In this document: positions 10,038 to 38,477 of the stretch, in pieces
Layout: every line of letters begins with the position of its first letter
Position numbering within the stretch: the first letter of the stretch is position 1
Source: Sphingobacterium thalpophilum
GTDB lineage: Bacteria; Bacteroidota; Bacteroidia; B-17B0; Aurantibacillaceae
Reading direction: 5' to 3'
Assembly (NCBI GenBank): GCA_943325195.2
Contig: CALPON020000011.1
Coordinates: 1 to 38,808 of the forward strand
DNA: 38,808 bases
Program-made: the position numbers and the translations under genes
Notes under the pieces: generated by a model
Seen by the model: the letters and a program-made list of their open reading frames with translations, nothing else
Told to the model about the DNA's origin: nothing
Databases searched by the model: none

Positions 10038-10045
10038 CAAAGGTA
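10038..10045 (-). promoter_or_regulatory. -7 box TACCTTTG abutting the start codon of the CxxC membrane protein
   Basis: On the minus strand TACCTTTG ends 4 nt (TGTC) before the ATG at 10033 and fits the Bacteroidota -7 consensus TAnnTTTG exactly. The position expected for the -33 TTTG, 19 nt upstream, reads ATTA, a weak match. Transcription would start at or next to the start codon. Confidence 0.5.
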
Positions 10046-10119
10046 GGGAATTTCGTGCGCTAAATAATGATTCCGAACTGATTTCGCTCAATCTGGGATT
10101 ATTAAATGCCAGCACATCA

Positions 10120-10908
10120 CTACTCCCCCTGAAAATCGGGTTTGCGTTTCGCTAAGAAAGCGCTTACGCCTTCCTTAAAATCGCGTGTGCCGAATGCTTT
10201 TCCGAACTCTTCAATCTCCACTTCATAGCCATTTAGACTGTTGTTATAGCCGGCGTTAATCACTTTAATCGCTGTTTTAATAGCAGTCGGACTCTTGGAG
10301 GCGATTTTTGCGGTAATTTCAAAACACTTGTTCATCAGTTCTTCCGGAGTTGTGACATAATTGGCCAGCCCCCATTTAAAGGCATCCTGAGCATTAATCA
10401 TATCCGCCGTGACAATCATTTCAAATGCTTTTCCTTTTCCGATTAATTGGGCCAGGCGTTGCGTACCGCCATAACCGGGAATCAGTCCCAAGCTCACTTC
10501 CGGCAATCCCATCTTCGCATTGTCACTGACTACCCGAAGATGACAAGCCATGGCCAGTTCCAGTCCCCCACCCAGCGCAAAACCATTGACCGCTGCAATA
10601 ATTGGCTTCGTGAAATTTTCAATAAAATTAAAGACTTTAAAATGTCCGCTGGAACTCAGTTGCTTTCCTTCAGACACAGAAAAGTTCGCAAACTCTGCAA
10701 TATCCGCTCCTGCGATAAAAGCTTTCTGTCCCGAACCCGTGATAATCACCGCCCGAATCTCATTCTGATTTTCTGCTTCAACAAGGGTTTCATGCAATTC
10801 CTCGATCGTCTGCTTGTTTAATGCATTCATCTTATCAGGTCTGTTAATAGTGATAACAAGCACGCTGTTAACGATCTCACATTTTATAAATTCTCCGGTA
10901 GCCACCAT
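10120..10908 (-). CDS. Enoyl-CoA hydratase/isomerase family protein
   Basis: 262 residues from the ATG at 10908; an upstream in-frame TTG at 10932 would add eight residues but overlaps the promoter. Crotonase fold: AFIAGADIAEF (63-73, first oxyanion-hole segment), NGFALGGGLELAMAC (108-122) and GLPEVSLGLIPGYGGTQRL (134-152). Both catalytic glutamates of true hydratases are present (E117 and E137, 20 residues apart as E144/E164 in the rat enzyme). It therefore probably hydrates trans-2-enoyl-CoA in fatty-acid beta-oxidation or the reverse reaction. It is monocistronic, with its own -7 box. A 3-hydroxybutyryl-CoA dehydratase (crotonase) role is equally possible. Confidence 0.92.
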   Translation of the reverse strand: MVATGEFIKCEIVNSVLVITINRPDKMNALNKQTIEELHETLVEAENQNEIRAVIITGSGQKAFIAGADIAEFANFSVSEGKQLSSSGHFKVFNFIENFTKPIIAAVNGFALGGGLELAMACHLRVVSDNAKMGLPEVSLGLIPGYGGTQRLAQLIGKGKAFEMIVTADMINAQDAFKWGLANYVTTPEELMNKCFEITAKIASKSPTAIKTAIKVINAGYNNSLNGYEVEIEEFGKAFGTRDFKEGVSAFLAKRKPDFQGE

Positions 10909-10929
10909 TTCTATTCTTTTAAAACTGGA

Positions 10930-10937
10930 CAAATATA
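10930..10937 (-). promoter_or_regulatory. -7 box TATATTTG of the enoyl-CoA hydratase gene
   Basis: An exact TAnnTTTG match on the minus strand, 21 nt before the ATG at 10908. A TTT triplet lies about 19 nt further upstream where the -33 TTTG is expected. Unlike most promoters in this window it leaves a short leader of about 15 nt, which contains an A-rich AAAAGAATAGAA. Confidence 0.5.
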
Positions 10938-11102
10938 GAGTAATTGGGTTTAAAATAAAGTGAATTTATACACAGGTGGTTTATAACTTATTTTCTAGTT
11001 AAACTGAGTAAAATCAAGGTGTGCAAGGGAAAAAGATAAATGAATACAAACTAAGTAATTGGAAATCCAGGACGGTCCCTTCTTCTTCCGCCTAATGGTA
11101 TA

Positions 11103-12302
11103 TCAGGACCTCAAATGCTCTGCAAGGTGCATCGCCATTGAAAAGCAGGATTGCAAAAGGTAGCCGCCCGTCGGCGCATCGTAATCAAGCATCTCGCCAA
11201 GCACATAAGTTCCCGGCAGTTGACGTAGTTCAAAATTTTCATCTACTTCTTCCAACACAATACCGCCAACAGTAGAGATGGCCTCTTCCAGTGGACCTAA
11301 ACCTCTAATAGGCAATGGCAATGCCTTCAGCCTCTGCATCAGGGCAGGTCCATCGAGATAGGTTTCCTTACTGCACAACTCCTTCAAAAGCCTCATTGCA
11401 GTGGTGTCCAGACGCAGCGCGGTCCGCACCTTCTCTGTCCAGCTACCAACCTGAGGGGTTTTATTAAGTTGCGTCAGCAATTCGTCCGCCGTATTATGCG
11501 GTTTTAAATCCAGCAAGAGGAAGGCCTCGCCACTTTCCTTCAGTTGGGTGCGAATTAGAGGGCTAAATGCATAACACCCCGACCCTTCAATACCTTGACT
11601 ATTAAAGACGATTTCACCAATGCGTTTTTCGTCTCCCATTTGCAGCCCTATATTTTTTAGCGGTTTGCCTGCGAGAGCGTCAAGGCTTGTGGAACTCATA
11701 GGGCAGATAAACCGGCAATTGCTCGCTTGAAATGGAGCCACCTGAATCCCTCGTTCAGAAAAAAAATGCAACCAGTCCCCCTTACTCCCCGTCACCGGCC
11801 AGCTCGCACCACCCAGAGCAAAAACAGTGGTACTAGAGGGCACATGAATAAAGCCCTGCTGATTCTTAAACAATAGATGACCCGCTTCATCAATTCCCTG
11901 CCACTGGTGTCTGTAATGCACTTGCACGGAAGGAACTTCCAAATAACTCAGCAATTGCGACAATACACGGGCGGGTTTAATTCCCGCCTCTGGAAAAACC
12001 CTAGCGCTGGAGCCCGTAAAGAGAAGGATCTCATGCTGACGGAGCCAGTCCATAAAGTACTGATTATCGAATTTGGTAAAAGCCGCTCTTAAAAATTCAG
12101 AAGGCGTGTAGCGCGCCAAAAATTCGACAGCCGGTTCGCTGTGGGTCAAATTAAGTCCACCTTCCCCTGCCACCAAAAATTTTCGCGCGGCTGCGTTTTG
12201 CTGATCGTAAACATGCACGGTGCGGCCGCAATCGCGGAGTGCCAGGGCGAGGAACAGGCCTGCAGAACCCATGCCGATAATATGTATACTGTCATCCCGC
12301 AT
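11103..12302 (-). CDS. FAD-dependent flavoprotein of the HI0933/PP_4765 family (TIGR03862-like)
   Basis: 399 residues. The N-terminus is a Rossmann dinucleotide-binding motif (IHIIGMGSAGLFLALALRDCG) followed at about residue 40 by KFLVAGEGGLNLTHSEP, the signature of the HI0933/BaiN-like flavoproteins, in the version ending LTHSEP that marks the PP_4765 subfamily. The C-terminus has GTYVLGEMLDYDAPTGGY, the second FAD-contact region. The ATG is the first codon of the Rossmann strand, so the start is well fixed. The physiological substrate of this subfamily is not established. It is divergent from the aldehyde dehydrogenase gene, separated by 79 bp. Confidence 0.9.
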   Translation of the reverse strand: MRDDSIHIIGMGSAGLFLALALRDCGRTVHVYDQQNAAARKFLVAGEGGLNLTHSEPAVEFLARYTPSEFLRAAFTKFDNQYFMDWLRQHEILLFTGSSARVFPEAGIKPARVLSQLLSYLEVPSVQVHYRHQWQGIDEAGHLLFKNQQGFIHVPSSTTVFALGGASWPVTGSKGDWLHFFSERGIQVAPFQASNCRFICPMSSTSLDALAGKPLKNIGLQMGDEKRIGEIVFNSQGIEGSGCYAFSPLIRTQLKESGEAFLLLDLKPHNTADELLTQLNKTPQVGSWTEKVRTALRLDTTAMRLLKELCSKETYLDGPALMQRLKALPLPIRGLGPLEEAISTVGGIVLEEVDENFELRQLPGTYVLGEMLDYDAPTGGYLLQSCFSMAMHLAEHLRS

Positions 12303-12342
12303 TTAAGATTGCAATTTAATGATTTAGCGCTCTGCACTGGCA

Positions 12343-12373
12343 TTGAAATAGTGCCCCGAAAGCTGTAAATTTG
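12343..12373 (+). promoter_or_regulatory. Promoter TTG-N20-TAAATTTG of the aldehyde dehydrogenase unit
   Basis: TTG at 12343-12345 and TAAATTTG at 12366-12373 are separated by 20 nt, close to the Bacteroidota TTTG-N19/20-TAnnTTTG consensus. The ATG at 12382 follows after 8 nt, so the mRNA leader would be only a few nucleotides. No Shine-Dalgarno sequence can fit. Confidence 0.65.
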
Positions 12374-12381
12374 CTCTAATC

Positions 12382-13827
12382 ATGCAGTATATCAGGAATT
12401 ACATTAACGGGCAATTGTCCCAACCCGCATCAAATAACTACCTCGATAATTTTGATCCTTCCGTTGGCAAAGTATACTCGTATATACCAGACAGTGATGA
12501 ACGGGACGTGGAAGCCGCCTATCAGGCTGCCAGCGCTGCCTTTCCAACTTGGAGCAATCTTTCAAAAGATAAGCGGTCGCACTACCTCCTGAAAATAGCA
12601 GACTTGATCGAAAAAAATCTCGATCGTTTGGCTGAAGCGGAAAGTAGGGACAATGGCAAGCCGCTGAAACTTGCAAAAACAGTGGATATTCCACGTGCCG
12701 CTGCCAACTTTCATTTTTACGGGACAGCAATTCTGCACTATGCCTCCCATGCTCACAGCATGGAGGGAATGGCGATTAACTACACCCTTCGTCAGCCCGT
12801 TGGTGTAGCGGGTTGCATTTCTCCCTGGAATTTGCCCCTTTACCTCTTCAGCTGGAAAATTGCGCCAGCACTGGCAGCAGGCTGTACGGTGGTAGCCAAG
12901 CCCTCAGAGATCACGCCCATGACTGCCTTTTTACTTTCTGAAATCTGCATCGAAGCCGGGCTGCCAGCAGGAGTCCTGAATATTGTGCACGGCCTTGGTG
13001 CCAAAGTTGGTAATGCCATTGTTTCGCATACGCACATTCCTCTTATTTCGTTTACAGGGGGCACTGTCACTGGTAAGCACATCGCCTCAGTTGCCGCACC
13101 CATGTTTAAAAAGCTTTCACTCGAATTAGGTGGGAAAAATCCTAACATCATTTTCGCCGATTGTGACTATGATAAAATGTTGCAAACCACCCTTCAATCC
13201 TCTTTTAGTAATCAGGGCCAAATTTGTCTCTGTGGTTCACGCATCTTTATTGAGCGAAGTATTTACAATCGTTTTAAAAATGATTTTGTAAGCCGCACCA
13301 AAGCGCTGACAGTCGGTCGGCCAGGTGATGAAAATACAAAGATTGGTGCTGTGGTTTCTGAATCCCATATGCAAAAAGTACTTTCATACATTCAATTAGC
13401 GAGAGAAGAAGGCGGCTCTGTCTTATGTGGAGGAAAACGTGTGCTGCTAGGGGGCGAAGAAGCAGATGGTTATTATTTGGAGCCGGCAGTAATTGAAGGG
13501 CTGGCCTACACCTGTCGTACCAACCAGGAAGAAATATTTGGACCCGTTGTCACCCTCACCCCCTTCGACACAGAAGAAGAAGCCTTGCTCATGGCAAACA
13601 GCACGGTGTATGGACTGGCGAGTATGGTGTGGACTGAAAATCTTAGTCGTGCCCACCGCATCGCAGAAAAAATACACGCCGGTATTGTTTGGATTAATTG
13701 CTGGCTGTTACGCGATTTGCGCACACCATTTGGTGGCGTGAAAGCCAGTGGCGTAGGCCGCGAAGGCGGATTTGAAGCGCTTGATTTTTTCACTGAACCA
13801 AAAAATGTTTGCATTAAATTGCAGTAA
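12382..13827 (+). CDS. Aldehyde dehydrogenase, 2-aminomuconate/2-hydroxymuconate semialdehyde dehydrogenase-like
   Basis: 481 residues with the complete ALDH core: ISPWNLP (147-152), KPSE (173-176), FTGGTVTGK, catalytic Glu in LELGGKNP (E248) and catalytic Cys in NQGQICLCGSR (C282). The C-terminal NCWLLRDLRTPFGGVKASGVGREGG resembles the ALDH8A1/2-aminomuconic semialdehyde dehydrogenase group of tryptophan (kynurenine) or catechol meta-cleavage degradation. It oxidises an aldehyde to an acid with NAD(P)+. No other kynurenine or catechol gene is visible, so the substrate is inferred from sequence resemblance only. First gene of a plus-strand run with the DnaJ-domain gene 12 nt downstream. Confidence 0.9.
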   Translation: MQYIRNYINGQLSQPASNNYLDNFDPSVGKVYSYIPDSDERDVEAAYQAASAAFPTWSNLSKDKRSHYLLKIADLIEKNLDRLAEAESRDNGKPLKLAKTVDIPRAAANFHFYGTAILHYASHAHSMEGMAINYTLRQPVGVAGCISPWNLPLYLFSWKIAPALAAGCTVVAKPSEITPMTAFLLSEICIEAGLPAGVLNIVHGLGAKVGNAIVSHTHIPLISFTGGTVTGKHIASVAAPMFKKLSLELGGKNPNIIFADCDYDKMLQTTLQSSFSNQGQICLCGSRIFIERSIYNRFKNDFVSRTKALTVGRPGDENTKIGAVVSESHMQKVLSYIQLAREEGGSVLCGGKRVLLGGEEADGYYLEPAVIEGLAYTCRTNQEEIFGPVVTLTPFDTEEEALLMANSTVYGLASMVWTENLSRAHRIAEKIHAGIVWINCWLLRDLRTPFGGVKASGVGREGGFEALDFFTEPKNVCIKLQ

Positions 13828-13839
13828 GGCTGGAATGAC

Positions 13840-14790
13840 TTGCCAAACTATTACGACATATTAGGTTTACCTGCGAGCGCCTCTGTGCCAGAGGTCAAGT
13901 CCGCCTTCCGTCTGCTAGCAAAACGCTTTCACCCGGATCTCAATCCCGCGGGTAAAGATCAATTTACCATAATTCTAAAAGCGTATGAGGTACTCAGCGA
14001 TCCACAGCAAAAGTATGTGTACGATTACCGCCTAAGTCAAAACCAAACAACAGCGGCACAAAAGACACGTACAGCAAAAAACACGGAAAGCGGAACAACA
14101 GAAAAAAACTGGCGCTTCGATGAACGGGAACTTCGCAGGCGGCAATACTATAATGAACACATCAAAAAATATGAAAAAAAAACTGCCCCACCCGTAAAAG
14201 AAAGTGTGGACACGACAACTTATAACGAATTCAAATATATCTTATTTGCAACCCCACTGGCTGTACTTTTATTTGTGGGGATTATGCACTTTGCGAATAA
14301 CCAGGGCGCGCCTTCAGAAAAATCACCAAGACGGCTGCCCCTCGAAACAGAATTTAAATCGCCCACTAACGCCGTAGCCGAAAGTCCCTTTGCCGACTAT
14401 TTTGGTGGGGCTTATTATGTGGCAAACAGTCCAGCTACGCTAACTTTACGCAATCTGACGGGAGCTGATGCCGTCATTTGTCTTTTTGACAGCACCCACT
14501 TTCTTAGAAGTTTTTTGTTGAAGGATGGCTATTCGGCCACCGTACCTGGTCTTCCCCAGCGACACATTCAATTGCGATACAGCAGCGGCAGAAACTTTGA
14601 TGAGGCGAAGGAAATTCCCAGCCAGCCCGTGCGGGGTGGTTTCAGCGAAGCCTATGGCACTTATAAAACGCAATCCACTTTTAATCTGGATGCAATTAAT
14701 CAGTTAACTTTATTGCCCGGCATAAACGATGGATTTGAATCCATCACGCCGGAAGACTTTTTTATAAAACACGATGATCAAAAAAATTGA
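13840..14790 (+). CDS. DnaJ-domain membrane protein
   Basis: 316 residues beginning with a J domain (about 2-66): YYDILGL, helix II, the essential HPD tripeptide at 31-33 (KRFHPDLNP) and YEVLSDPQQKYVYD. A charged linker (about 67-128) leads to one transmembrane helix (about 133-151) and an unrecognised C-terminal domain of about 165 residues. There is no Gly/Phe region or zinc-finger domain, so this is a J-domain (type III) protein that would recruit DnaK to the membrane. The start is TTG at 13840: the upstream stop is in the same frame 12 nt earlier and no ATG lies between it and the J domain. It overlaps the epimerase gene by 17 nt. Confidence 0.87.
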   Translation: MPNYYDILGLPASASVPEVKSAFRLLAKRFHPDLNPAGKDQFTIILKAYEVLSDPQQKYVYDYRLSQNQTTAAQKTRTAKNTESGTTEKNWRFDERELRRRQYYNEHIKKYEKKTAPPVKESVDTTTYNEFKYILFATPLAVLLFVGIMHFANNQGAPSEKSPRRLPLETEFKSPTNAVAESPFADYFGGAYYVANSPATLTLRNLTGADAVICLFDSTHFLRSFLLKDGYSATVPGLPQRHIQLRYSSGRNFDEAKEIPSQPVRGGFSEAYGTYKTQSTFNLDAINQLTLLPGINDGFESITPEDFFIKHDDQKN

Positions 14791-15178: not shown

Positions 15179-15186
15179 ACAAAAAT

Positions 15187-16520: not shown

Positions 16521-16541
16521 ACTCGTTCTGATTAATTGACA

Positions 16542-16862
16542 TCATGCTTCTATATCCGTCTCCATTACTTTAACAATCATCTCCCTTACATTGTTTACAT
16601 CTACCCGCCGGTCCATCCCATCAATGATTTTTTGTGAACCACTCTCAGTCCCAATCCATAAAAGAAAACAACCACTGTCTTTCAGCAGCTGAATCAGCTC
16701 CTCCTTTATGCGGTCCCCGCGGGTAATTATTTCGTAAGGTAAGTGCATGCCCTGCTTTTTCACTTCTATGTAAAGGCCCCTCAGGCAGCGATGACAGATC
16801 GTAAACACATCGTCTACAAACCAGAGTCGCTCGGCAATGGATTGCCTAGCAGGGATGTTCAT
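16542..16862 (-). pseudogene. Remnant of a B12-binding-domain/radical SAM protein
   Basis: The 106-codon frame encodes only an internal piece of the B12-dependent radical SAM family. RLWFVDDVFTI, then PYEIITRGDRIKEELIQLLKDSGCFLLWIGTESGSQKIIDGMDRR, then VREMIVKVMETDIEA follow the barrel region downstream of the [4Fe-4S] CxxxCxxC motif. That motif, the B12-binding domain and the C-terminus are all absent. The frame is closed by TAA four codons before the first ATG and by TGA where homologues would continue GMFIMLGYPGE-like. It is therefore most likely decayed debris of a gene lost by deletion. Expression as a small protein is possible but has no support. Confidence 0.72.
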
Positions 16863-19355: not shown

Positions 19356-19407
19356 ACTTAAAAATACTAAAAACGTTTGGCATAGAGGCAGGCTCTCCAC
19401 CAGGATT

Positions 19408-20389: not shown

Positions 20390-20397
20390 CAAAATTA
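20390..20397 (-). promoter_or_regulatory. -7 box TAATTTTG of hldD
   Basis: Minus-strand TAATTTTG is an exact TAnnTTTG match ending 7 nt before the hldD ATG at 20382. No convincing -33 TTTG is found at the standard spacing. It lies in the 69-bp divergent interval shared with the acyl-CoA synthetase gene. Confidence 0.45.
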
Positions 20398-23286: not shown

Positions 23287-23294
23287 TACTTTTG
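23287..23294 (+). promoter_or_regulatory. -7 box TACTTTTG upstream of the Ig-like lipoprotein gene
   Basis: An exact TAnnTTTG match ending 9 nt before the ATG at 23304. The upstream -33 position has no clear TTTG. It lies in the divergent interval with the radical SAM gene. Confidence 0.42.
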
Positions 23295-26200: not shown

Positions 26201-26223
26201 AGCCGTCAATATGCCTAACTTCG
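26192..26223 (+). promoter_or_regulatory. Candidate promoter of the trpG/pabA-aro unit, overlapping the terminator
   Basis: TAACTTCG (26216-26223; one mismatch to TAnnTTTG) ends 3 nt before the ATG at 26227. The -33 position, 20 nt upstream, falls in the terminator T-tract (TTTT). The mRNA would be leaderless or nearly so. Confidence 0.4.
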
Positions 26224-27861: not shown

Positions 27862-29089
27862 TCTGAATGCTGCAACTATTATAAAGGGATCGGTCCTCCT
27901 GCCAGTTTCAAAAAGTCTGGCGAACAGACAATTGATTCTGCAGGCCGCACAGGGCCTTCCATTGTCACCTGCTCAGCACGACGAGCCCGAGGATGTGCAA
28001 ATCATGCGGCAGGCACTTCAATTAGCGGCAGAAAAAACGACGGCTGAAATTAATGTCGGTCCCGCCGGCACAGCGATGCGTTTTCTTTGCGCCTATCTTT
28101 CTACAAAAAAAGGAGAATGGCAGTTGAACGGATCCGAAAGGATGCAACATCGGCCGATTGCGTTACTAGTAGAAGCACTAAGGACCATCGGGGCAGATAT
28201 CCGATACCTCAACCAGGAAGGCTTTCCTCCTTTGTTGATAAAGGGAAAAAAACTAGTGTCACAAAACTTACAAATCTCTTCAGATTTTAGCTCACAATAT
28301 ATTTCTGCTTTATTACTGATGGCCCCGTTTATTGATAAAGGTCTTGAGCTCGAACTAACAGGGACACCTGTCTCTGAACCCTATATAAAGATGAGTTTGG
28401 AGATGCTTCGTCAGGCAGGGGCAATGATCACAACATCGGGAACGCGTATAAAAGTAGAGGAAGGACTGCAAGCTTCGCCAGAGCCTCCAACGACAGAGGC
28501 AGACTGGACTGCCGCCTCTTATTACTTTTCCATTTGCGCTCTTTCTGCCGGTAGTGAAATTTTTTTAAAAGGTCTCCGTAAAAATAGTCTGCAGGGCGAC
28601 GCCATTCTTCCCGATATTTTCTCTCAACTTGGCGTCACTGCGCAATTTACCGCTGATGGTCTATTCATACGCCATATCGGAAACCCTGTCGCTCATTTTA
28701 CCTACAATTGTATCGACTGTCCTGATCTGGCGCAGACACTTGCGCTTACCTGCGCGGGCTTGGGAATATCTGCACGTCTTACAGGACTTTCCACCTTGCG
28801 GATAAAAGAGACTGACCGGCTCCTCGCAATTGACAAAGAACTCAGTAAGTGTGGCCTCAGGGTAAGGCGCGGACCCGATTTTTTAGAAATGGATGCGCAA
28901 AGCGCACTGGTTTTTCCACAGGCGATTGAGACGTATTCAGATCACCGCATGGCCATGGCCTTTGCGCCGCTCAGCATCGTACTTCCCGGCCTTTTGATAA
29001 AAGACGAACAGGTTGTCGGTAAATCGTATCCCGCTTTTTGGGAACATTTGATATCGCTTGGTTTTAATGTAAATTTGCAGCCACACTAA
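27854..29089 (+). CDS. aroA: 3-phosphoshikimate 1-carboxyvinyltransferase (EPSP synthase)
   Basis: 411 residues from ATG 27854 (ATGCTTAG overlaps the aroB stop by 8 nt); an upstream TTG at 27830 is not needed. Motifs: LPVSKSLANRQLIL (phosphate/PEP site, Lys20), VGPAGTAMRFL, SSQYISALL, SEPYIKMSLEML, KETDRL and YSDHRMAMA. It makes EPSP from shikimate-3-phosphate and PEP. The first loop has Val where the common motif has Gly (LPGSKS). It shares one base with tatC (TAATG) and its 3' end contains the tatC promoter. Confidence 0.93.
   Translation: MLSLNAATIIKGSVLLPVSKSLANRQLILQAAQGLPLSPAQHDEPEDVQIMRQALQLAAEKTTAEINVGPAGTAMRFLCAYLSTKKGEWQLNGSERMQHRPIALLVEALRTIGADIRYLNQEGFPPLLIKGKKLVSQNLQISSDFSSQYISALLLMAPFIDKGLELELTGTPVSEPYIKMSLEMLRQAGAMITTSGTRIKVEEGLQASPEPPTTEADWTAASYYFSICALSAGSEIFLKGLRKNSLQGDAILPDIFSQLGVTAQFTADGLFIRHIGNPVAHFTYNCIDCPDLAQTLALTCAGLGISARLTGLSTLRIKETDRLLAIDKELSKCGLRVRRGPDFLEMDAQSALVFPQAIETYSDHRMAMAFAPLSIVLPGLLIKDEQVVGKSYPAFWEHLISLGFNVNLQPH
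29047..29077 (+). promoter_or_regulatory. Consensus promoter TTTG-N19-TAAATTTG inside the aroA 3' end, driving tatC
   Basis: TTTG at 29047-29050 and TAAATTTG at 29070-29077 match the Bacteroidota -33/-7 consensus exactly with 19-nt spacing. The tatC ATG at 29089 follows 11 nt later. The site is within the last codons of aroA, so tatC and the AhpD-like gene can be transcribed independently of the aro genes. Confidence 0.7.
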
Positions 29090-30516: not shown

Positions 30517-30549
30517 CAAAGATAGCGACAATCAACGTTCAGGCACAAA
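30517..30549 (-). promoter_or_regulatory. Promoter TTTG-N21-TATCTTTG of the pspC gene
   Basis: Minus strand: TTTG (30549-30546) and exact -7 box TATCTTTG (30524-30517), with the ATG at 30512 after only 4 nt (TGTG). The -33 box lies within the end of the DUF2851 gene. Spacing is 1-2 nt longer than the usual 19-20. Confidence 0.6.
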
Positions 30550-31834
30550 TTTTTTCCGTTTTCAGAATGGCGGTGGCCAGACCGCAGCGCAGGCAGGCTT
30601 TTTCATGACAATAGCGCTCGTGTAACTGAATTAAACCCTGAGAATGTGCAGCCGTTTTAATCTGAGTGCTTTTCGACGCATAGGGCCTTGTCTTTGCATT
30701 GTCCTCGGCTTTGCAAACCTGAAGTAACTCCAAAGCATAACTTAGATATGCTCCTTTACCAAACCGTTTTCCATAATAAAAAAGAAAAGGCGCGAAACTG
30801 TTAATCATGAGGTTTTCGCGCGAGGGCCGGCCCAGAAATAATATCTTTTCCGATTCCCTGCCATCCGCCCGGTAATGGTTTCTCCAATAACCTTCTGGCT
30901 GAATGCTCAACACCTGGTCGATTTCAGCATAAGTTGTATAAAGCTGCGGGGCCATGAAGAAGCGGGACTGTCGGTGAATGAGTTGACACAATTGCGCGAG
31001 ACGAACCAAAGGGAAATTTGCAGGCCGCATGCGGGATGTTTTGAATAGCTCTTTTTTCAAAGGCACCAGATTGTATTTTCGGGACAGGAAAGTGAATTCA
31101 TTTTGAAGATCGCGCAGGTAGCCCGCTTCGAAATACTCATCCAAAAAACCTGCACAACCCATCACCAGCGCTTCCAACTGAAACAGCTGATCGGCATGTT
31201 TTAATAGTAATTGAATGGGCAGATGCCGAGCCAGTAATTCAAAGGGCAGGGCATTGGTGCTAAAACCTAGATTGCGGAGAAAAAGGGTATAAAATGTTTG
31301 TGTCAGGTCCTGACCGAAACTGTCTGCAAAACTTCGAATACGATCCAATCTGGACGCTAGACGCTCATGGGTCATTTGATCCAGCCACTTTGTAAACAGA
31401 GCATCCGGCACTGCCTCCAACTGTGAAGCACAGGGCAAACTTGAAAAGCCGGCCATCATTGACTTATAGCGTTCAAATGTGCGGACGTCAATCCAATTTT
31501 TTAATTCTAACACCTCAACCTGGTGCAGGGTGTTTTGCGGAATTTCCCGATCGTGCTCATACACCACATGCAAAATCAGGCGGTCGTAGGCGGGGTCGGA
31601 CTGATGCTGATGCTTCAACCAGTCACTGCTTTTTTTATGTATTTCAATATTTCCAACAAGGGTAGTGGAACCAATTAAGATTTTTCCATTACTAAAATCC
31701 GGACCTGAATGCCTGTTTAATTCCCCCGGCTCCAGCACTCGGATGGCCGCACCACTGCAGGAAATAAGGGTCTCCGGTTTTAGCAAGCGGTGCTGCCAGA
31801 TAAAGTGTAGCAGTTCTTCATTAAATTCAGGCAT
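30539..31834 (-). CDS. DUF2851 family protein
   Basis: 431 residues from ATG 31834, which overlaps the ydcF-like stop by 8 nt; the first 25 codons of a longer reading lie inside that gene and are unlikely. The start MPEFNEELLHFIWQHRLL, the GELNRHSGPDFSNGKILI segment and GNIEIHKKSSDW with HVVYEHD are hallmarks of this Bacteroidota family. The tail (HERYCHEKACLRCGLATAIL) carries three cysteines. Function unknown; the conserved EIH and HVV(Y/W) segments suggest an enzyme but no activity is established. Confidence 0.88.
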   Translation of the reverse strand: MPEFNEELLHFIWQHRLLKPETLISCSGAAIRVLEPGELNRHSGPDFSNGKILIGSTTLVGNIEIHKKSSDWLKHQHQSDPAYDRLILHVVYEHDREIPQNTLHQVEVLELKNWIDVRTFERYKSMMAGFSSLPCASQLEAVPDALFTKWLDQMTHERLASRLDRIRSFADSFGQDLTQTFYTLFLRNLGFSTNALPFELLARHLPIQLLLKHADQLFQLEALVMGCAGFLDEYFEAGYLRDLQNEFTFLSRKYNLVPLKKELFKTSRMRPANFPLVRLAQLCQLIHRQSRFFMAPQLYTTYAEIDQVLSIQPEGYWRNHYRADGRESEKILFLGRPSRENLMINSFAPFLFYYGKRFGKGAYLSYALELLQVCKAEDNAKTRPYASKSTQIKTAAHSQGLIQLHERYCHEKACLRCGLATAILKTEKICA

Positions 31835-32594
31835 ATCCCTTGAGCTTGTAAATGAGGTATCCAACCCATTCATGCAGCAAGAGATCTGTTCCCAGCAGAG
31901 CGCTGGCATTGGGTATGAACAGGTGATCGGGCGTTAAACGTCTGACGCCACTCGATCGGTTGGTGACATACGGAAAGATATTCGAGTAGCCTGCCTTTTC
32001 GAAAATGGCCATACTACGACGCATATGAAACCCACTGGTGACCAACAAAAAAGGACCATGGAGCTGCAAACTATCTACCAACTTTTTAGTAAAAATCGCA
32101 TTCTCAAGCGTATTACGACTCTCGGATTCAATGATCAATGCAGAGTCGGGCACCTGAATCTCGCGGAGGTATTTATGGACATACCTGCCCTCTTTTTTTT
32201 CAGGAAACTCTACGCTGCCTGATCCGCCAGTAAATATTATTTTATTGAGCCGTCCCCTGTGATACAGTCGAAGCGTTTGCAATAGCCTATCAGCACCAGC
32301 ACCAAAATTTATTTTTTGCAGACGAAGGTCCACCTCGCCTATCCCTCCGAGCACGATAGCGGCCTCATAGCGGCCAGACTGCAGGTCCCAGTCCGGCGTC
32401 ACCGGCTCCCATGCACGAAAAGCTTCATCTACCAGAAAAGCATTGGAGCACAGGTAGAGCAGCAGGGCAGCAGACCAGCGTAAACGTTTTGCGCGGCGCT
32501 CAGAGGCCGTGAAAAAAGAATAGATCAGCAAGGTCAACACCCAAACTAGGGGCGAGATTAGAAAAGCAAGAATTTTTGATAACCAGAAAAACAT
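31827..32594 (-). CDS. YdcF/ElyC (DUF218) family membrane protein
   Basis: 255 residues: two N-terminal membrane helices (about 3-27 and 38-54), then the DUF218 domain with AAIVLGGIGEVDLRLQ, GADRLLQTLRLYHRGRLNKIIFTGGSG, ESRNTLENA and LLVTSGFHMRRSMAIFEKAGY. The family (E. coli ElyC, YdcF, SanA) is linked to envelope/peptidoglycan integrity; no precise reaction is established. The ATG at 32594 lies 5 nt after TACTTTCG, a one-mismatch -7 box. First gene of the unit with DUF2851 and pspC, all envelope-type or unknown. Confidence 0.87.
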   Translation of the reverse strand: MFFWLSKILAFLISPLVWVLTLLIYSFFTASERRAKRLRWSAALLLYLCSNAFLVDEAFRAWEPVTPDWDLQSGRYEAAIVLGGIGEVDLRLQKINFGAGADRLLQTLRLYHRGRLNKIIFTGGSGSVEFPEKKEGRYVHKYLREIQVPDSALIIESESRNTLENAIFTKKLVDSLQLHGPFLLVTSGFHMRRSMAIFEKAGYSNIFPYVTNRSSGVRRLTPDHLFIPNASALLGTDLLLHEWVGYLIYKLKGYA

Positions 32595-32853
32595 CAAAAC
32601 GAAAGTAAGAAAACCCTCTCGGGAGATGTTAACAAGAAGTTAACCGCTCACTGCATCGGGTATGCCAAGAATAGCGCGCAATAAAATTTTGATTCGAAGT
32701 CATGCGGGATGCCCAGATGATCCTTTTTGGGATCAACTAGCAGCGCCCCTTCCCACGTCGTCGCAGCACTTAAATGAACGCATTTATTCTGCCATTTTTC
32801 CCCCCTTCAGGGCTTACAAACAATATTTCTTACCTTTATGGCTTAAGACATTT
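32595..32853. other. Divergent interval between ydcF-like and biotin carboxylase genes
   Basis: 259 bp. The frame is open in phase with the carboxylase from 32662, but that extension does not look like the family and is treated as non-coding. A pair of GTTAAC palindromes 5 nt apart (32628-32633 and 32639-32644) sits near the ydcF-like -7 box and could be an operator. TACCTTTA (32831-32838) is a one-mismatch -7 box 15 nt before the carboxylase ATG. Confidence 0.5.
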
Positions 32854-34338
32854 ATGCAAAAAATATTGATTGCTAACCGCGGCGAAATTGCTTTAAGAAT
32901 TATGCGTTCTGCGCGTGAAATGGGTATAAAAACTGTAGCAGTGTATTCGGAAGCCGACCGTAATGCGCTCTTTGTAAGGTATGCGGATGAAGCCGTTTGC
33001 ATCGGACCACCTCCAAGTGCGCAGTCTTACCTTCAGGGTGACAAAATTATTGAAGTGTGCAAAACATTGAACGTAGACGGCATCCATCCGGGCTATGGTT
33101 TTCTAAGTGAAAACGCTGACTTTGCAAGAAAAGTGCGGGAAGCGGGAATAATATTTATCGGTCCGAGTCCTGAAAGCATGGACCTCATGGGAGACAAACT
33201 CTCTGCAAAAGCGACCGCTAAAAAATACAAGGTACCCATGATTCCCGGCTCGGAAGGTGCAATCAGTGATTTGAATCAAGCCATTCGTGTTGCTAAAGAA
33301 GTAGGTTTTCCTCTTCTTATCAAAGCAAGCGCCGGTGGTGGTGGTAAAGGCATGCGACTGGTAGAACGGGAAGAAGAGATTGAAGAGCAAATGAAACTCG
33401 CTGTGAGTGAAGCAATTTCTGCTTTTGGAAATGGAGCGGTTTTTATCGAACGTTATGCCACGGGCCCGCGTCACATCGAAATACAATTGCTTGCAGATAA
33501 TCACGGCAACTGTGTTTACTTATTTGAACGGGAATGCAGCATTCAACGTCGTCACCAAAAACTAATTGAGGAAGCGCCCAGCAGCGTTCTAAGTCCTGAA
33601 CTTCGTGAACGAATGGGCAAATGTGCTGTTGATGTTGCCAAAGCCTGTAATTACAGTGGTGCTGGGACGGTGGAGTTTCTGGTGGATGATCAGCTCAACT
33701 TTTATTTCCTAGAAATGAATACCCGACTGCAGGTGGAACATCCCGTTTCGGAAATGATAACGGGACTCGACCTCGTGAAGGAACAAATTAAAGTGGCAAG
33801 AAATGAAAAATTAAGTTTTACCCAAGAGGATTTGAAAATCAATGGCCACGCGATTGAAGTGCGTGTTTGTGCAGAAGACCCGATGAATAACTTTTTGCCA
33901 GATATTGGTAAATTAACAGTTTATAAAACACCTGCTGGTCCCGGTGTCCGCGTGGACGACAGCTTTGAAGAAGGCATGGAGATTCCTATTTTTTATGATC
34001 CCATGATTTCGAAGCTAGTGGTGCATGGTAAAGACCGGACAGAAGCGATTGCAAAAATGATTCGTGCGATTGACGATTACAAGATTGTTGGGGTGGAGAC
34101 CACACTTGAATTTTGTAAATTCGTTTTAAAGCATGAGGCCTTTGTCACTGGTCAATTTGATACCGGATTTATTGGCCGTTATTTTAAACCGGAAATGCTG
34201 CAGCAGCCTGATGCTGAGCTGGAGCTGGTGGCAGCGATGGCAGGAGCCCTGATTTTTGACCAAACTGCAGCGCATACATTATCTGGCGCCAACGCGCCTG
34301 TTAAACAAAGTAAATGGAAAAGCCAGCGTCTATCCTAG
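32854..34338 (+). CDS. accC: Biotin carboxylase subunit of acetyl-/propionyl-CoA carboxylase
   Basis: 494 residues from ATG 32854 (MQKILIANRGEIALRI, the exact family start). ATP-grasp motifs: Lys157 and GGGGKGM (161-167), EAPSS, and FLEMNTRLQVEHPVSE with E287/N289/R291; RHIEIQ and the C-terminal biotin-carboxylase domain are intact. It carboxylates biotin on a carrier protein using ATP and bicarbonate. It has about 45 extra C-terminal residues over E. coli AccC (449), as in the Bacteroidota forms often paired with propionyl-CoA carboxylase. The biotin carrier and transferase genes are not adjacent, so acetyl- and propionyl-CoA roles cannot be separated. Confidence 0.92.
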   Translation: MQKILIANRGEIALRIMRSAREMGIKTVAVYSEADRNALFVRYADEAVCIGPPPSAQSYLQGDKIIEVCKTLNVDGIHPGYGFLSENADFARKVREAGIIFIGPSPESMDLMGDKLSAKATAKKYKVPMIPGSEGAISDLNQAIRVAKEVGFPLLIKASAGGGGKGMRLVEREEEIEEQMKLAVSEAISAFGNGAVFIERYATGPRHIEIQLLADNHGNCVYLFERECSIQRRHQKLIEEAPSSVLSPELRERMGKCAVDVAKACNYSGAGTVEFLVDDQLNFYFLEMNTRLQVEHPVSEMITGLDLVKEQIKVARNEKLSFTQEDLKINGHAIEVRVCAEDPMNNFLPDIGKLTVYKTPAGPGVRVDDSFEEGMEIPIFYDPMISKLVVHGKDRTEAIAKMIRAIDDYKIVGVETTLEFCKFVLKHEAFVTGQFDTGFIGRYFKPEMLQQPDAELELVAAMAGALIFDQTAAHTLSGANAPVKQSKWKSQRLS

Positions 34339-34346
34339 CACGAAAC

Positions 34347-34378
34347 TTGCAGGTTACTTCCTGCAATAATGCGCATTA
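34347..34378. repeat. Hairpin and 12-bp palindrome between accC and the DUF4294 gene
   Basis: TTGCAGG/CCTGCAA with a 6-nt loop (34347-34366) is followed directly by the perfect palindrome TAATGCGCATTA (34367-34378), ending 7 nt before the DUF4294 ATG. No T-tract follows the hairpin, so RNA processing or an operator is as likely as termination. Confidence 0.55.
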
Positions 34379-34385
34379 AAAGGAA

Positions 34386-35006
34386 ATGACAGGTCAATGC
34401 ATACGAACCCGAATCGTTCAGATCATTTTCCTGCTGCCTATGACTGTGCTCAGAGCGCAGGAACTTCCTGTACCTGAAAGTCCAGCTGCGGGCGGCATAC
34501 GAACCCGGGCAGAAATTGTGAACGGCGACACCATCCCACTTATTCAGCTCAACACAGTAAATATTTATGCACAGTATCAATATAAAACACCGCGGCAAAG
34601 AGAAGAGTGGACGCGGATAAAGTACAATGTCCGCAAGGTCTATCCCTACGCCATTATTGCCGCTGCTAAATTGAAGGAGTATGATTTGGCTCTTTCGAAG
34701 ATTGAAAACAAAAACCTCCGAAAAGCCTTTATAAAGGCTTGTGAAAAGGACTTACGGGATCAGTTTGAAGAAGATTTAAAAGGCTTGACCGTTTCGCAAG
34801 GCCGGGCGCTCATGAAACTCATCGACCGTGAAACAGGCCGCACAACCTACGAGCTAGTCAAAGAATTGCGAGGCGGCTTTCAGGCAGCCATGTGGCAAGC
34901 CGTGGCCTCGCTGTTTGGCAACAGCATGAAGGTGAATTATGATGCTGAACATGAAGATTTGCTCATTGAACGCGCAGTGAAACTGGTTGAAGCCGGTCAG
35001 TTTTAA
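34386..35006 (+). CDS. DUF4294 family secreted protein
   Basis: 206 residues. A signal peptide (about 1-24, ending VLRAQ) precedes the NGDTIPLIQLNTVNIYAQ segment and YNVRKVYPYAIIAAAKLKEYD, which mark this Bacteroidota family, and ends in helical GRALMKLIDRETGRTTYELVKELRGGFQAAMWQAVA. Function unknown; periplasmic location inferred. The gene is preceded by a hairpin and a palindrome and followed after 28 bp by another secreted unknown. Confidence 0.85.
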   Translation: MTGQCIRTRIVQIIFLLPMTVLRAQELPVPESPAAGGIRTRAEIVNGDTIPLIQLNTVNIYAQYQYKTPRQREEWTRIKYNVRKVYPYAIIAAAKLKEYDLALSKIENKNLRKAFIKACEKDLRDQFEEDLKGLTVSQGRALMKLIDRETGRTTYELVKELRGGFQAAMWQAVASLFGNSMKVNYDAEHEDLLIERAVKLVEAGQF

Positions 35007-35034
35007 AAATCTAAATTTTTAGTAATTTAACGGC

Positions 35035-35673
35035 ATGAATAAAGTCTTTGCTATAACGCTTTGTTGCGTCCTTTCACTGGCCGTTACGGCTCAGGTTAAA
35101 AAACCTGTTCCCTCCAAAACACCAACAGCTGAAGGCGCATCCAATGCCTTAGCAGCCGACACCTCTCAGCCTAAAGAACTTGAGCCCGCAATTCCAAAGG
35201 AATTTGCTGTCTATACAAAACGCTATAAAATCATCAAACCTGCCCTGCGCCTTTGTATTAATCTACCGGGTGGTGACAGCACCTTAAATTACTGCATGGT
35301 TGATTCGCTCGTGCGCGACCCGGAAAACTACAAAGTACTTTTTCAGCACAAAGATGCAGATAGCACCTTTGCACTCATCTATGTTTCTGCCTTCACCAAA
35401 GATCCAGAACGCCCGGAATGTGTCGCAGGACGGGAGACCAAACTTTACTTTATTCGCTGGAACACCACCACGAACAAGGCCATTGTGAAACAACGTTATA
35501 TTGAATCCTGCTACCGCACCATCACCCGACTTTCGGACGAAAATTTAATGGAGTACGATGGTACTCGCCCAATCACCATCAGCTACAACAAAGGAGCCTC
35601 CTTTATTGATCTGACCTTTGATCCCGCCAATTACAAAGCCGGCATCCAAAGTAATAAAGAAGCAGAAAAATAA
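35035..35673 (+). CDS. Secreted protein of unknown function
   Basis: 212 residues with a signal peptide (MNKVFAITLCCVLSLAVTAQ), a Pro/Thr/Ser-rich linker (about 21-50) and an unrecognised globular domain containing four Cys (RLCINL, NYCMVD, PECVAG, ESCYRT) that could form two disulfides. Likely periplasmic. Codon use and composition resemble neighbouring genes. It precedes lpxK by 49 bp, but I see no link in function. Confidence 0.75.
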   Translation: MNKVFAITLCCVLSLAVTAQVKKPVPSKTPTAEGASNALAADTSQPKELEPAIPKEFAVYTKRYKIIKPALRLCINLPGGDSTLNYCMVDSLVRDPENYKVLFQHKDADSTFALIYVSAFTKDPERPECVAGRETKLYFIRWNTTTNKAIVKQRYIESCYRTITRLSDENLMEYDGTRPITISYNKGASFIDLTFDPANYKAGIQSNKEAEK

Positions 35674-35722
35674 CACCTCCCTGGTTTTCAACTCTCAGAA
35701 ATAATAGGCATATTGAAGCAGC

Positions 35723-36808
35723 TTGAATAAAGGACTTAAAATACTGCTGCTGCCTTTAGCCTTTCTTTATGGCCTGATTACACTCATTCGTAACCGGCTG
35801 TTTGACTGGAAAATTTTGTCTCAAAAAGAATTCGACATCCCTACAATTGGTGTTGGCAATCTTTCCGTTGGAGGCGCCGGTAAAACCCCGCTGGTAGAGT
35901 ACATGATCCGTTTACTGCAATCAGAAAACATTCCCCCCGCTACTTTAAGCCGCGGCTACAAGCGCAAAACAAAAGGTTTTTTGCTGGCAACAGATCTTTC
36001 CACCGCTGACGACATAGGCGATGAACCCTTACTCTATAAAAGTAAATACCAAGTGCAAGTGGCCGTGGATGGCAACAGACCAAGAGGCGTTCAGACCCTC
36101 ATGAGCCTCAATCCGCCACCAGCTGTGCTTTTGCTGGACGATGTCTTTCAACACCGAGCTATTCGCTGTGGACTCAACGTGGTGGTGAGCGACTTCAATC
36201 ACCTTTATTTTAAAGATCAAATGCTGCCAGCAGGCACCTTACGTGAATTTCCATCTGGTATTAAGCGGGCAGATGTAATCGTGATCAGCAAAACACCGGA
36301 TTACACGAGTCCGGTTGAAATACGGACACTCCTCAAAGACATTGGCGCTAGGGCCCATCAGCAGGTGTTTTTCAGTTATTTAAAGTATGGAGATCTTTAC
36401 TCGGTGCACGACCGTTCGCAGCAGATGGGCACCCTCACTGATTTATTCCGGTACCGCTGCATTTTATTTTCCGGTATTGCGAATCCCGCCCCAATGATAA
36501 CCTATCTGAAAGAATATGCAGCAGAGGTAAAGCACTTACCCTTTCCGGACCACCACGATTTTACTGAAAAAGATCTGAGTGATATGGAACGCTATTATCA
36601 TAGTTTCAGCGGCGGGAATAAAATCATGGTGACGACAGAGAAGGACCTCATGCGTTTAAAAAAGCCCGAGCTCTGGGACCTCGTAAAAACGATGAACATT
36701 TATATACTTCCGGTGGAAGTAAGCTTCAAAGAGAAAGAAGAAGAATTTAATTCCTTGATTTTAAAATATGTCAGATCTTATCGCATCCACCACCACAAGT
36801 ATACGTGA
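35723..36808 (+). CDS. lpxK: Tetraacyldisaccharide 4'-kinase
   Basis: 361 residues. An N-terminal membrane helix (about 5-22) precedes the Walker A GNLSVGGAGKTP (45-56), then LSRGYKR, GDEPLL and LLLDDVFQHR, all typical of LpxK. It phosphorylates the 4' position of the lipid A disaccharide at the inner membrane. The start is TTG at 35723: an in-frame TGA lies just upstream (35714-35716) and the first ATG is inside the nucleotide-binding domain. The 3' end overlaps the nucleoside phosphorylase gene by 41 nt, giving LpxK a His-rich tail (RIHHHKYT). Confidence 0.92.
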   Translation: MNKGLKILLLPLAFLYGLITLIRNRLFDWKILSQKEFDIPTIGVGNLSVGGAGKTPLVEYMIRLLQSENIPPATLSRGYKRKTKGFLLATDLSTADDIGDEPLLYKSKYQVQVAVDGNRPRGVQTLMSLNPPPAVLLLDDVFQHRAIRCGLNVVVSDFNHLYFKDQMLPAGTLREFPSGIKRADVIVISKTPDYTSPVEIRTLLKDIGARAHQQVFFSYLKYGDLYSVHDRSQQMGTLTDLFRYRCILFSGIANPAPMITYLKEYAAEVKHLPFPDHHDFTEKDLSDMERYYHSFSGGNKIMVTTEKDLMRLKKPELWDLVKTMNIYILPVEVSFKEKEEEFNSLILKYVRSYRIHHHKYT

Positions 36809-37583
36809 ACAAACGGGTAATTTTGCGCCGGAAATCGGCATTATCCTCGGCTCCGGACTCGGTAATTTTATTGACGAAATTCAGGTCGCCTACGCGATAC
36901 CTTATTCTGATATTCTGAATTTTCCAGTCAGCACCGTGAAAGGGCATAAGGGCCAATTGATTTTCGGGACCATTGGTCCAAAAAAAGTAATAGCCATGCA
37001 GGGTCGCTTTCATTTTTATGAAGGGTACACCATGCATGAAATTACTTTCCCTGTCAGAGTGATGAAGGCGCTGGGCGTGCACACCCTTTGTGTGAGCAAT
37101 GCGAGCGGGGGCATGAACCCTGATTACAAAGTGGGTGAACTGGTGCTCATTAATGATCATATTAATTTTTTTCCAGACAACCCCCTCATTGGAAAAAATA
37201 ACGATTCCCTCGGTCCACGTTTTGTGGACATGAGTGAAGCCTATAGCAAAAGGCTCATTTTACTGGCCAAAGAAATTGCCGCAGAACAGAAAATTGCCCT
37301 TAGCGAGGGCGTTTATGTGGGTCTGACCGGTCCTTGTTTTGAGACACCAGCTGAATATCGCATGTTTCGCAGGATGGGTGCGGACATCGTGGGCATGAGT
37401 ACCGTGCCCGAAGTCATTGTAGCACGCCACGCAGGGATGGAAGTCTTTGGTATTAGTATCGTCAGCGATCTGGGCATTGAAGGGCATGTGGAGAAAGTCA
37501 GCCACGAAGACGTTCTGCGCGAAGCCAGCCGCAAGGAGCCACTGATTGCGACTATTGTAAAGGAAGTAGTGATCCGCTGCTAG
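36768..37583 (+). CDS. Purine nucleoside phosphorylase (PNP/MTAP family)
   Basis: 271 residues of the trimeric PNP class: GSGLG (28-32), phosphate site GRFHFYEGY (79-87), NASGG (111-115), GPCFETPAEYRMF (188-200) and GMSTVPEVIVARH (209-221). It cleaves purine ribosides with phosphate in nucleoside salvage. In the base-binding region it has SDLG (D234) where mammalian PNP has Asn243, so base preference is uncertain. The ATG lies inside lpxK (41-nt overlap) and the stop overlaps that of the convergent gene at CTAG. Confidence 0.9.
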   Translation: MSDLIASTTTSIREQTGNFAPEIGIILGSGLGNFIDEIQVAYAIPYSDILNFPVSTVKGHKGQLIFGTIGPKKVIAMQGRFHFYEGYTMHEITFPVRVMKALGVHTLCVSNASGGMNPDYKVGELVLINDHINFFPDNPLIGKNNDSLGPRFVDMSEAYSKRLILLAKEIAAEQKIALSEGVYVGLTGPCFETPAEYRMFRRMGADIVGMSTVPEVIVARHAGMEVFGISIVSDLGIEGHVEKVSHEDVLREASRKEPLIATIVKEVVIRC

Positions 37584-38035
37584 TTTTTAGGGCAGAGGAA
37601 TCTGTTTTCAAAAAGCACGGCGTTGTTCCGTTTATCAGTAAACTGAATCAGCACCTCTCCAGGAGCAATGGCAGAAGCTCCGTTAACCCCTGCTTTATAC
37701 CTGAATTTATTCTCCTCATCACGCCGGTAAAAGTGCTCATAGCGCATGCCAGGAAGTAGTTTACAAAGCACAAGGCTATCGTTTTTCTGAAGAATCAGGG
37801 CGGCATTTTCAGAAGAGATTACCAGAAAAGGCTTCAGTGTATCCGGTACCAGCAAATAAAACAAATCATTTTTTCCAGGAACGAGCTGAGAGGAAGCGTT
37901 TTGCTTTTGAAAAAAATAAATGAATTGCGACTCTTTTTTAAAACGGATTTTTTCAAGATCCTGCGCAGAAAGCACAGCGCAAAAGAGAAGGAAAGTAAAA
38001 AGGAAAGCTTCTGCTTTTATCAAGGACCTTTTCAT
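37580..38035 (-). CDS. Secreted protein of unknown function
   Basis: 151 residues with a signal peptide (MKRSLIKAEAFLFTFLLFCAVLSAQ) and a beta-rich domain that I do not recognise, ending RFLCPKN. It is probably periplasmic. The ATG at 38035 is 44 nt below the tatA stop, and TCCATTTG, a one-mismatch -7 box, ends 5 nt before it, so it may have its own promoter as well as read-through from tatA. Confidence 0.72.
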   Translation of the reverse strand: MKRSLIKAEAFLFTFLLFCAVLSAQDLEKIRFKKESQFIYFFQKQNASSQLVPGKNDLFYLLVPDTLKPFLVISSENAALILQKNDSLVLCKLLPGMRYEHFYRRDEENKFRYKAGVNGASAIAPGEVLIQFTDKRNNAVLFENRFLCPKN

Positions 38036-38079
38036 AAAATCAAATGGAACTTTTTGGGATCTTCTGAGAAGGAAACTAC

Positions 38080-38331
38080 TTACTCTTTCTCAATCTCTTT
38101 TTTAATTTCTTTTACCTGCTCATTAACGTGTTCGGTAATGTGGCCTGTACTATCCTGAATATCGCGCTTAATGCCGTCAGTAGCATCTTTAAATTCACGC
38201 AGACCTTTGCCAAGTGTTTTGGCGATACCGGGAATCCCTTTGCCACCAAACATTAAAAGAATGACAAGCAAAATCATAACGACTTCGCCGCCGCCTAGAT
38301 TCAGAAATAAAATATAGGAAGGGAACATCAT
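38080..38331 (-). CDS. tatA: Twin-arginine translocase subunit TatA/TatE
   Basis: 83 residues: a short N-terminal helix with GGGEVVMILLVILLMFGGKGIPGIAKTLGKGLREFKDAT is the classical TatA transmembrane-hinge-amphipathic arrangement, followed by a charged helical tail (about 50-83). TatA oligomerises to form the translocation path with TatC, encoded at 29089. Two ATGs in tandem start it (38331 and 38328); the first overlaps the stop of the 37-residue gene as ATGA, implying translational coupling. Confidence 0.9.
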   Translation of the reverse strand: MMFPSYILFLNLGGGEVVMILLVILLMFGGKGIPGIAKTLGKGLREFKDATDGIKRDIQDSTGHITEHVNEQVKEIKKEIEKE

Positions 38332-38441
38332 TTCTTTTTGCCTGCACGCATGAACTTAAATACACCAATGCAACCGCCAATAAAAACGACCGCCACAAAA
38401 GCAATAATAACAAAATCACTTAAATCTGGTTCATTGTGCAT
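38328..38441 (-). CDS. 37-residue single-pass membrane protein upstream of tatA
   Basis: MHNEPDLSDF, then one hydrophobic helix VIIAFVAVVFIGGCIGVF, then the basic tail KFMRAGKKK: an acidic N-terminus and a positive C-terminal end, predicting N-out/C-in insertion by the positive-inside rule. The stop TGA overlaps the tatA ATG (ATGA). A consensus promoter (TTCG-N20-TAAATTTG) ends 4 nt before its ATG, making this the first gene of the tatA transcript. I know no family for it. Role inferred only from position: a possible Tat accessory or a leader for coupling. Confidence 0.72.
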   Translation of the reverse strand: MHNEPDLSDFVIIAFVAVVFIGGCIGVFKFMRAGKKK

Positions 38442-38445
38442 ACAG

Positions 38446-38477
38446 CAAATTTACGAAAAAGAATGACATCCCCCGAA
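38446..38477 (-). promoter_or_regulatory. Promoter TTCG-N20-TAAATTTG of the small membrane protein/tatA unit
   Basis: Minus strand: TTCG (38477-38474; three of four -33 bases), 20-nt spacer, exact -7 box TAAATTTG (38453-38446). The ATG at 38441 follows 4 nt later, so the transcript is probably leaderless. Confidence 0.6.

Follow-up and report, generated by a model that had tools for sequence, protein, structure and literature searches.

Promoter boxes next to start codons suggest a discrete near-leaderless gene class in a Flavobacteriales-like genome

In the 38,808-nucleotide (nt) window analyzed here (contig CALPON020000011.1 of assembly GCA_943325195.2) and in the genome from which it comes, the sequence TAnnTTTG often ends a few nucleotides before the start codons of operon-first genes. 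We consider it probable, at about 0.78, that these boxes act as -7 elements in ordinary promoters recognized by sigma-ABfr, the primary sigma factor of Bacteroidota, and that in a discrete, lineage-dependent minority of operon-first genes the promoter would be fused to the start codon and give rise to leaderless or near-leaderless mRNAs. The positions of the boxes, their enrichment, the left edge of their distribution, its bimodal shape (distinct when genomes are pooled, less so in this one alone), their recurrence in the phylum, and the coding quality of the starts behind them were observed directly.

Box positions upstream of operon-first genes

The genome (2.91 Mb in 217 contigs, 98.4% complete) falls into a fully supported clade of 11 in an RpoB tree of 28 rows, which also holds Brumimicrobium, two Crocinitomicaceae metagenome-assembled genomes (MAGs), a Flavobacteriales MAG, and several further families, including that of genome G057. 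Since the tree leaves its place inside this clade unsettled, we treat the genome, judging by RpoB, as Flavobacteriales-like and use no finer label. We combined 788 kb taken in stretches with the window into a sample of 827 kb (28% of the genome), in which a home-made dicodon gene finder called 666 genes. These comprise 377 operon-first genes (184 divergent and 193 with at least 60 nt to a co-directional neighbor), 198 internal genes (less than 25 nt to a co-directional neighbor), 57 intermediate genes, and 34 edge genes. Throughout, the gap is the number of nucleotides between the end of the box and the start codon.

An exact box lies at gap 4 to 11 before 30/377 operon-first genes, compared to a mean of 2.4 and a maximum of 7 in 200 dinucleotide shuffles of the operon-first upstream DNA (2.0 in a separate shuffle run), and before 3/198 internal, 6/57 intermediate, and 1/34 edge genes. 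This contrast between operon-first starts, internal starts, and shuffled DNA, which the preliminary description had put forward as a check on its proposal, is thus one of enrichment in the sampled part of the genome. Among the 30 genes, 23 are divergent and 7 co-directional, and they start with ATG (28), GTG (1), or TTG (1), a distribution to be read with the gene finder's own preference for ATG. Farther upstream, at gap 12 to 40, an exact box precedes 61 operon-first genes (9.0 in shuffles). G occurs at each middle position of the box at a frequency of 3%. With a set of four variants (TAnn followed by TTTG, TTTA, TTAG, or TTCG, G being barred from both middle positions), the counts at gap 4 to 11 rise to 67/377 operon-first genes (shuffle mean 6.3, maximum 12 in 40) vs. 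8/198 internal genes, and at gap 12 to 40 to 119/377 operon-first genes (shuffle mean 22.3). Taken singly at gap 4 to 11, TAnnTTTA (28 vs. 4.4 in shuffles), TTAG (8 vs. 1.4), and TTCG (5 vs. 0.9) all exceed the shuffles, while at these gaps none of the controls (TTTT, TTTC, CTTG, and the box in reverse) is enriched in the sample. TAnnTTTA and TAnnTTAG are thus enriched alongside TAnnTTTG before operon-first genes, at gap 4 to 11 above the levels in the Crocinitomicaceae MAG G148 and in G057; in this lineage the requirement for G at the end of the -7 box may be loosened.

The distribution has a left edge, with 1 exact box at gap 0 to 3 vs. 10 at gap 4 in the 827-kb sample. We also tallied TAnnTTTG followed by ATG over the whole genome by gap, without gene calls, taking the same pattern at gap 75 to 95 as the baseline; a reversed pattern was dropped as baseline because it outnumbered the true counts in several genomes (e.g., G033, G088, and G126). 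Gap 4 was found 76 times vs. 40.6 expected (z 5.6, fold 1.87), and the excess was 64 at gap 5 to 11, 81 at gap 15 to 22, and -22 at gap 23 to 43. When all 64 trinucleotides were compared at gap 4, ATG had the highest z (3.9; 55 vs. 32.5). The scarcity at gap 0 to 3 and the spike at gap 4 are consistent with the distance of 4 to 5 nt between the -7 box and the transcription start published for Flavobacterium johnsoniae (PMC6847099). If transcription starts 4 to 5 nt past the box here as well, a gap of 4 leaves a 5'-terminal AUG. mRNAs with a gap of 4 to 5 would then start at their own AUG, those with a gap of 6 to 8 would have a leader of 1 to 4 nt, and most of the remaining promoters, with a gap of 13 to 23, would produce leaders of ~9 to 18 nt.

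We defined the near-leaderless class as gap 4 to 8 and estimated its size by assigning the nearest box to each operon-first gene and subtracting shuffle counts. With the exact box it comprises 22/87 promoters (26%), or 6.0% of operon-first genes, and with the four variants 48/162 promoters (29%), or 12.6% of operon-first genes. There are 1.6 to 2.4 leadered promoters for each near-leaderless one, depending on the cut-off, and a class of 6 to 13% of operon-first genes falls short of the systematic leaderlessness suggested by the preliminary description. The corresponding shares (exact/four-variant) are 25%/22% in the same-genus genome G172, 24%/22% in G148, 43%/40% in G115, and 5%/10% in G057, differences that are rough, since each of these samples spans 200 to 400 kb and holds, after correction, 2 to 16 near-leaderless genes.

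A TTTG-like -33 box had been reported for several of the promoters, which did not hold up: TTTG lies at a spacer of 17 to 22 nt in 1/30 near and 2/61 leadered promoters, and TTG in 7/30 and 9/61, which is at most a hint. Since the -33 element is also weak in Flavobacterium johnsoniae (PMC6847099), its missing enrichment is not decisive for the assignment to sigma-ABfr promoters. Shine-Dalgarno (SD) motifs are almost absent upstream of starts, with GGAGG in 2/377 operon-first and 3/198 internal genes and GGAG in 5 and 5; this scarcity agrees with the hidden anti-SD described for the class (PMC9976891). Bacteroidota retain an anti-SD sequence, which their ribosomes conceal.

Recurrence across genomes and the two gap classes

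The whole-genome fold at gap 4 exceeds 1 in 66/73 genomes, and z is at least 3 in 32/73. The 66 include the genome studied here, 36/36 evenly drawn genomes of its class, 20/24 named genomes, 9/10 genomes chosen for high counts, and 0/2 chosen as negatives. In a second set, made up of this genome, 16 others of its genus, and 12 of other families, the fold exceeds 1 in 29/29 and z is at least 3 in 14. The genome has the highest gap-4 fold of the 17 in its genus, two others being larger in absolute excess, and ranks 18 of 73 overall. The suggestion that mRNAs start at or next to the ATG therefore stands in part: boxes are placed beyond chance, before operon-first genes, where transcription would start at or within ~4 nt of the ATG, while the systematic character is not supported. 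The pattern is not special to this genome.

The gaps fall into two modes. Summed over the 37 same-class genomes, this one included, the excess per gap position is 1172 at gap 4, 140 at gap 5 to 11, 122 at gap 9 to 14, 683 at gap 15 to 22, and 77 at gap 23 to 43. When exact boxes before called starts were pooled from six sampled genomes, 65 lay at gap 4 to 7, 10 at gap 9 to 12, and 54 at gap 15 to 18 (binomial p 2.6e-11 and 1.0e-8 for the trough, with bins picked post hoc from the histogram); the four variants gave 120, 43, and 97.

Eight genomes of family f23, from another class of the phylum (G144, G101, G136, G105, G113, G027, G086, and G059), have gap-4 folds of 2.4 to 7.5, among the strongest of the 73. 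They show nearly no excess at gap 15 to 22 and an excess at gap 23 to 43, which points to a different promoter-to-start layout in this family; RpoB of G144 is 58% identical to that of the genome studied here. We set the family aside as further support, because G144 had 2 boxes at gap 4 to 11 in 38 operon-first genes, which is too few.

From the positions of the boxes we infer the transcription start sites, the sigma factor, translation from the near ATG, and two routes of initiation. In the first route, the AUG at the 5' end would be recognized directly; in the second, recruitment would be SD-independent and require some leader. Leaders of ~5 to 8 nt would be under-represented, and the trough could be understood if a leader of that length fitted neither route. 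A broader version of this idea is tentative, and we rate it slightly short of an even chance: the two routes, with leaders of 0 to 4 nt or of at least about 9 nt, would be phylum-wide, leaders of 5 to 8 nt would be selected against, lineages would differ mainly in how they split their genes between the routes, and orthologous promoters would switch, as hldD (below) may illustrate.

Boxes in the window and competing explanations

The window contains 32 exact boxes on both strands vs. 34.2 expected, a number at chance level, so any signal lies in position only. The seven exact boxes that the preliminary description placed 4 to 11 nt before an ATG, and its three one-mismatch boxes at 3 to 5 nt, were all found with those gaps (coordinates of the three variants are derived from the gap):
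12366 to 12373, + strand: candidate -7 box TAAATTTG, gap 8, ATG 12382, aldehyde dehydrogenase (PF00171), divergent
20390 to 20397, - strand: candidate -7 box TAATTTTG, gap 7, ATG 20382, hldD-type epimerase (PF01370), divergent
23287 to 23294, + strand: candidate -7 box TACTTTTG, gap 9, ATG 23304, Ig-like (Big_5) protein, divergent, outside the gap 4 to 8 class
10038 to 10045, - strand: candidate -7 box TACCTTTG, gap 4, ATG 10033, 86-aa open reading frame (ORF) at 9773 to 10033
38446 to 38453, - strand: candidate -7 box TAAATTTG, gap 4, ATG 38441, 37-codon ORF upstream of tatA
30517 to 30524, - strand: candidate -7 box TATCTTTG, gap 4, ATG 30512, pspC (PF04024)
29070 to 29077, + strand: TAAATTTG, gap 11, ATG 29089, tatC (PF00902)
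32600 to 32607, - strand: variant box TACTTTCG, gap 5, ATG 32594, DUF218 (ydcF-type) gene, divergent
19359 to 19366, - strand: variant TATTTTTA, gap 3, ATG 19355, M1 peptidase, under the usual edge and weak
26216 to 26223, + strand: variant TAACTTCG, gap 3, ATG 26227, class-I glutamine amidotransferase (PF00117, trpG/pabA type), under the usual edge and weak

The gene names proposed earlier agree with PF00171, PF01370 (hldD type), Big_5, TatC PF00902, PspC PF04024, M1 peptidase, PF00117, DUF218, and TatA PF02416; for the 86-aa ORF (9773 to 10033, - strand), which has no Pfam match, "CxxC membrane protein" is a label of the preliminary description only. Three of the seven exact boxes precede divergent genes (aldehyde dehydrogenase, hldD, and the Ig-like protein), and those of tatC and pspC are weak because of their upstream genes: tatC overlaps the preceding co-directional PF00275 gene by 1 nt, its box lying inside the end of that coding sequence, and pspC follows the co-directional gene 30539 to 31873 by 26 nt. 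The tatC box is perhaps a chance occurrence or an internal promoter, and the pspC box may be operon-internal. The 37-codon ORF (38328 to 38441, - strand) is partly hydrophobic, and its 3' end overlaps the start of tatA (38080 to 38331, - strand) at 38331 (AAATGATG); because of this overlap, its translation may be coupled to that of tatA. Elsewhere in the window, TAAATTGC lies 9 nt before the ATG of 11103 to 12302 (- strand) and 8 nt before that of 16542 to 16862 (- strand). Both resemble the SM5 box of Flavobacterium psychrophilum, TAnnTTGY (PMC9723704). A second box of this type was dropped as a candidate, since TAnnTTGC at gap 4 to 11 (3 vs. 1.7 in shuffles) is not clearly enriched.

The near boxes might be secondary promoters, the main transcripts coming from farther upstream with normal leaders. 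The tatC and pspC boxes, in or beside upstream genes, fit such a situation, and so does hldD, whose box lies at gap 13 to 19 in 11/17 same-genus copies. However, 23/30 near-box genes are divergent, and 1/20 near-box genes of a smaller first sample had another exact box no more than 60 nt away, a count that leaves room for degenerate upstream promoters. We therefore regard this explanation as unlikely, though it fares best of the three considered.

Slightly less likely still is that ribosomes ignore the ATG next to the box and initiate at an in-frame codon farther downstream, which would give the mRNA an ordinary leader. Another ATG does occur within 20 codons in 9/51 near-leaderless genes, and in the window the hldD ATG precedes the start used in most relatives by 3 codons. 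Against this, the next in-frame ATG is more than 20 codons away in 42/51, and codons 3 to 13 are as coding as those of other genes, with dicodon scores of 0.088 in near-leaderless, 0.082 in leadered, and 0.086 in internal genes vs. -0.10 in the same frame upstream. For hldD itself, ATG 20382 is the sole in-frame ATG before the conserved motif. That near-ATG boxes merely reflect chance in AT-rich upstream DNA, or a gene finder taking the first ATG after a stop-containing box, is highly improbable: the window has no box excess and an in-frame stop lies within 30 nt upstream in 26/51 near-leaderless genes, but such stops are equally common in leadered genes (56/115), shuffles give 2.4 vs. 30 observed, internal genes lack the enrichment (3/198), and the gap-4 spike is also present in whole-genome counts made without gene calls.

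The hldD gene offers a view of a single promoter across genomes. Among its 17 readable same-genus copies, this one included, the nearest four-variant box has gaps of 4, 4, 4, 5, 7 (this genome), and 9 in six, and of 13 to 19 in the other 11, two of which have identical upstream sequence. Outside the genus, a box was found in 4 of 9 readable copies (gaps 5, 16, 20, and 20), and among 80 hldD relatives in other genomes, 19 carry an exact box no more than 60 nt before the start, all at gap 14 to 44 and none at 4 to 11. The hldD promoter is kept in the genus, its distance to the start shifting between the two classes.

Several results weigh against a discrete class of promoters fused to the start codon. 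In the window, just three called genes fall within gap 4 to 8, and both small gap-4 ORFs (86 aa, and 37 aa, which is under the length limit) were missed by the gene finder. In the comparison of trinucleotides, CCT (z 3.4) and AAT (3.2) come near ATG at gap 4, the absolute excess of AAT being slightly above that of ATG. A missing A at -3, considered as a sign of untranscribed bases, was rejected, A-richness there being the same in both classes (36% A in 14 genes with gap 4 to 5, 39% in 57 leadered genes). The 16 other same-genus genomes pool to a fold of 1.26 (1.87 in this genome), 6/16 being singly at or near z 3. In this genome alone, the counts at gap 4 to 7, 9 to 12, and 15 to 18 are 28, 8, and 17 for the exact box (p 6e-4 and 0.054) and 65, 26, and 43 for the four variants (p 2.7e-5 and 0.027), and gap 5 to 8 is per nucleotide almost as full as gap 15 to 22; since its trough is shallower, the clean trough belongs to the pooled genomes. 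Finally, published start-site data of three species describe mostly leadered mRNAs (PMC9723704, PMC6847099, PMC7366714). A discrete near-leaderless class is the reading we retain with these points in view.

Comparison with known leaderless systems

In Actinobacteria and Deinococcus-Thermus, leaderless mRNAs begin at the start codon or immediately beside it, behind a Pribnow-type box. The genes described here would share that position of the start codon and differ in the box. According to a table in a 2011 survey (PMC3160421), leaderless genes average 19% in Actinobacteria and 39% in Deinococcus-Thermus. The survey's approach was like ours in relying on a promoter signal that lies a short, constant distance from the start codon, and it differed in seeking Pribnow-like boxes, a limit stated by its authors; it reported leaderless genes in 1/37 Bacteroidetes/Chlorobi genomes.

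For Bacteroidota, the promoter type, SD-less translation, and a minor leaderless fraction are already known, and a 2024 survey records leaderless mRNA in some Flavobacteriia (PMC10783764). No two-class leader distribution was found for the phylum in the titles and abstract openings of the open-licence literature (supplements not covered). As far as we have seen, three points are new: how large the class is in this lineage, that it recurs across the phylum, and that a trough separates the two classes. If the leaderless class is indeed discrete and larger in some lineages, and if the trough is real, recognition of a 5'-end AUG would be a regular route of initiation in Bacteroidota. The two-class reading yields testable predictions on minimal leader length and could help correct start-codon calls in Bacteroidota genomes.

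Published leaderless shares of 3.7 to 13% use differing cut-offs. Bacteroides thetaiotaomicron, which has the same promoter type, differs in having few short leaders: by differential RNA sequencing ~3.7% are shorter than 10 nt, and the commonest leader is 23 nt (PMC7366714). F. johnsoniae shares the -7 element, there TAHHTTTG and often 4 to 5 nt from the start site, with a weak -33 and no SD; it differs in that 87% of leaders exceed 10 nt and 13% are at most 10 nt, and the sections of that paper used here do not state a two-class leader distribution (PMC6847099). F. psychrophilum is alike in phylum, in its -7 consensus TAnnTTTG, and in having a leaderless minority among mRNAs that have a median leader of 24 nt (PMC9723704). 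It differs in the extent of that minority, which here, known from sequence alone, would be ~26 to 29% of detectable promoters (gap 4 to 8) and there was mapped at 5.5% of the mRNAs from 890 genes whose start sites were of high confidence.

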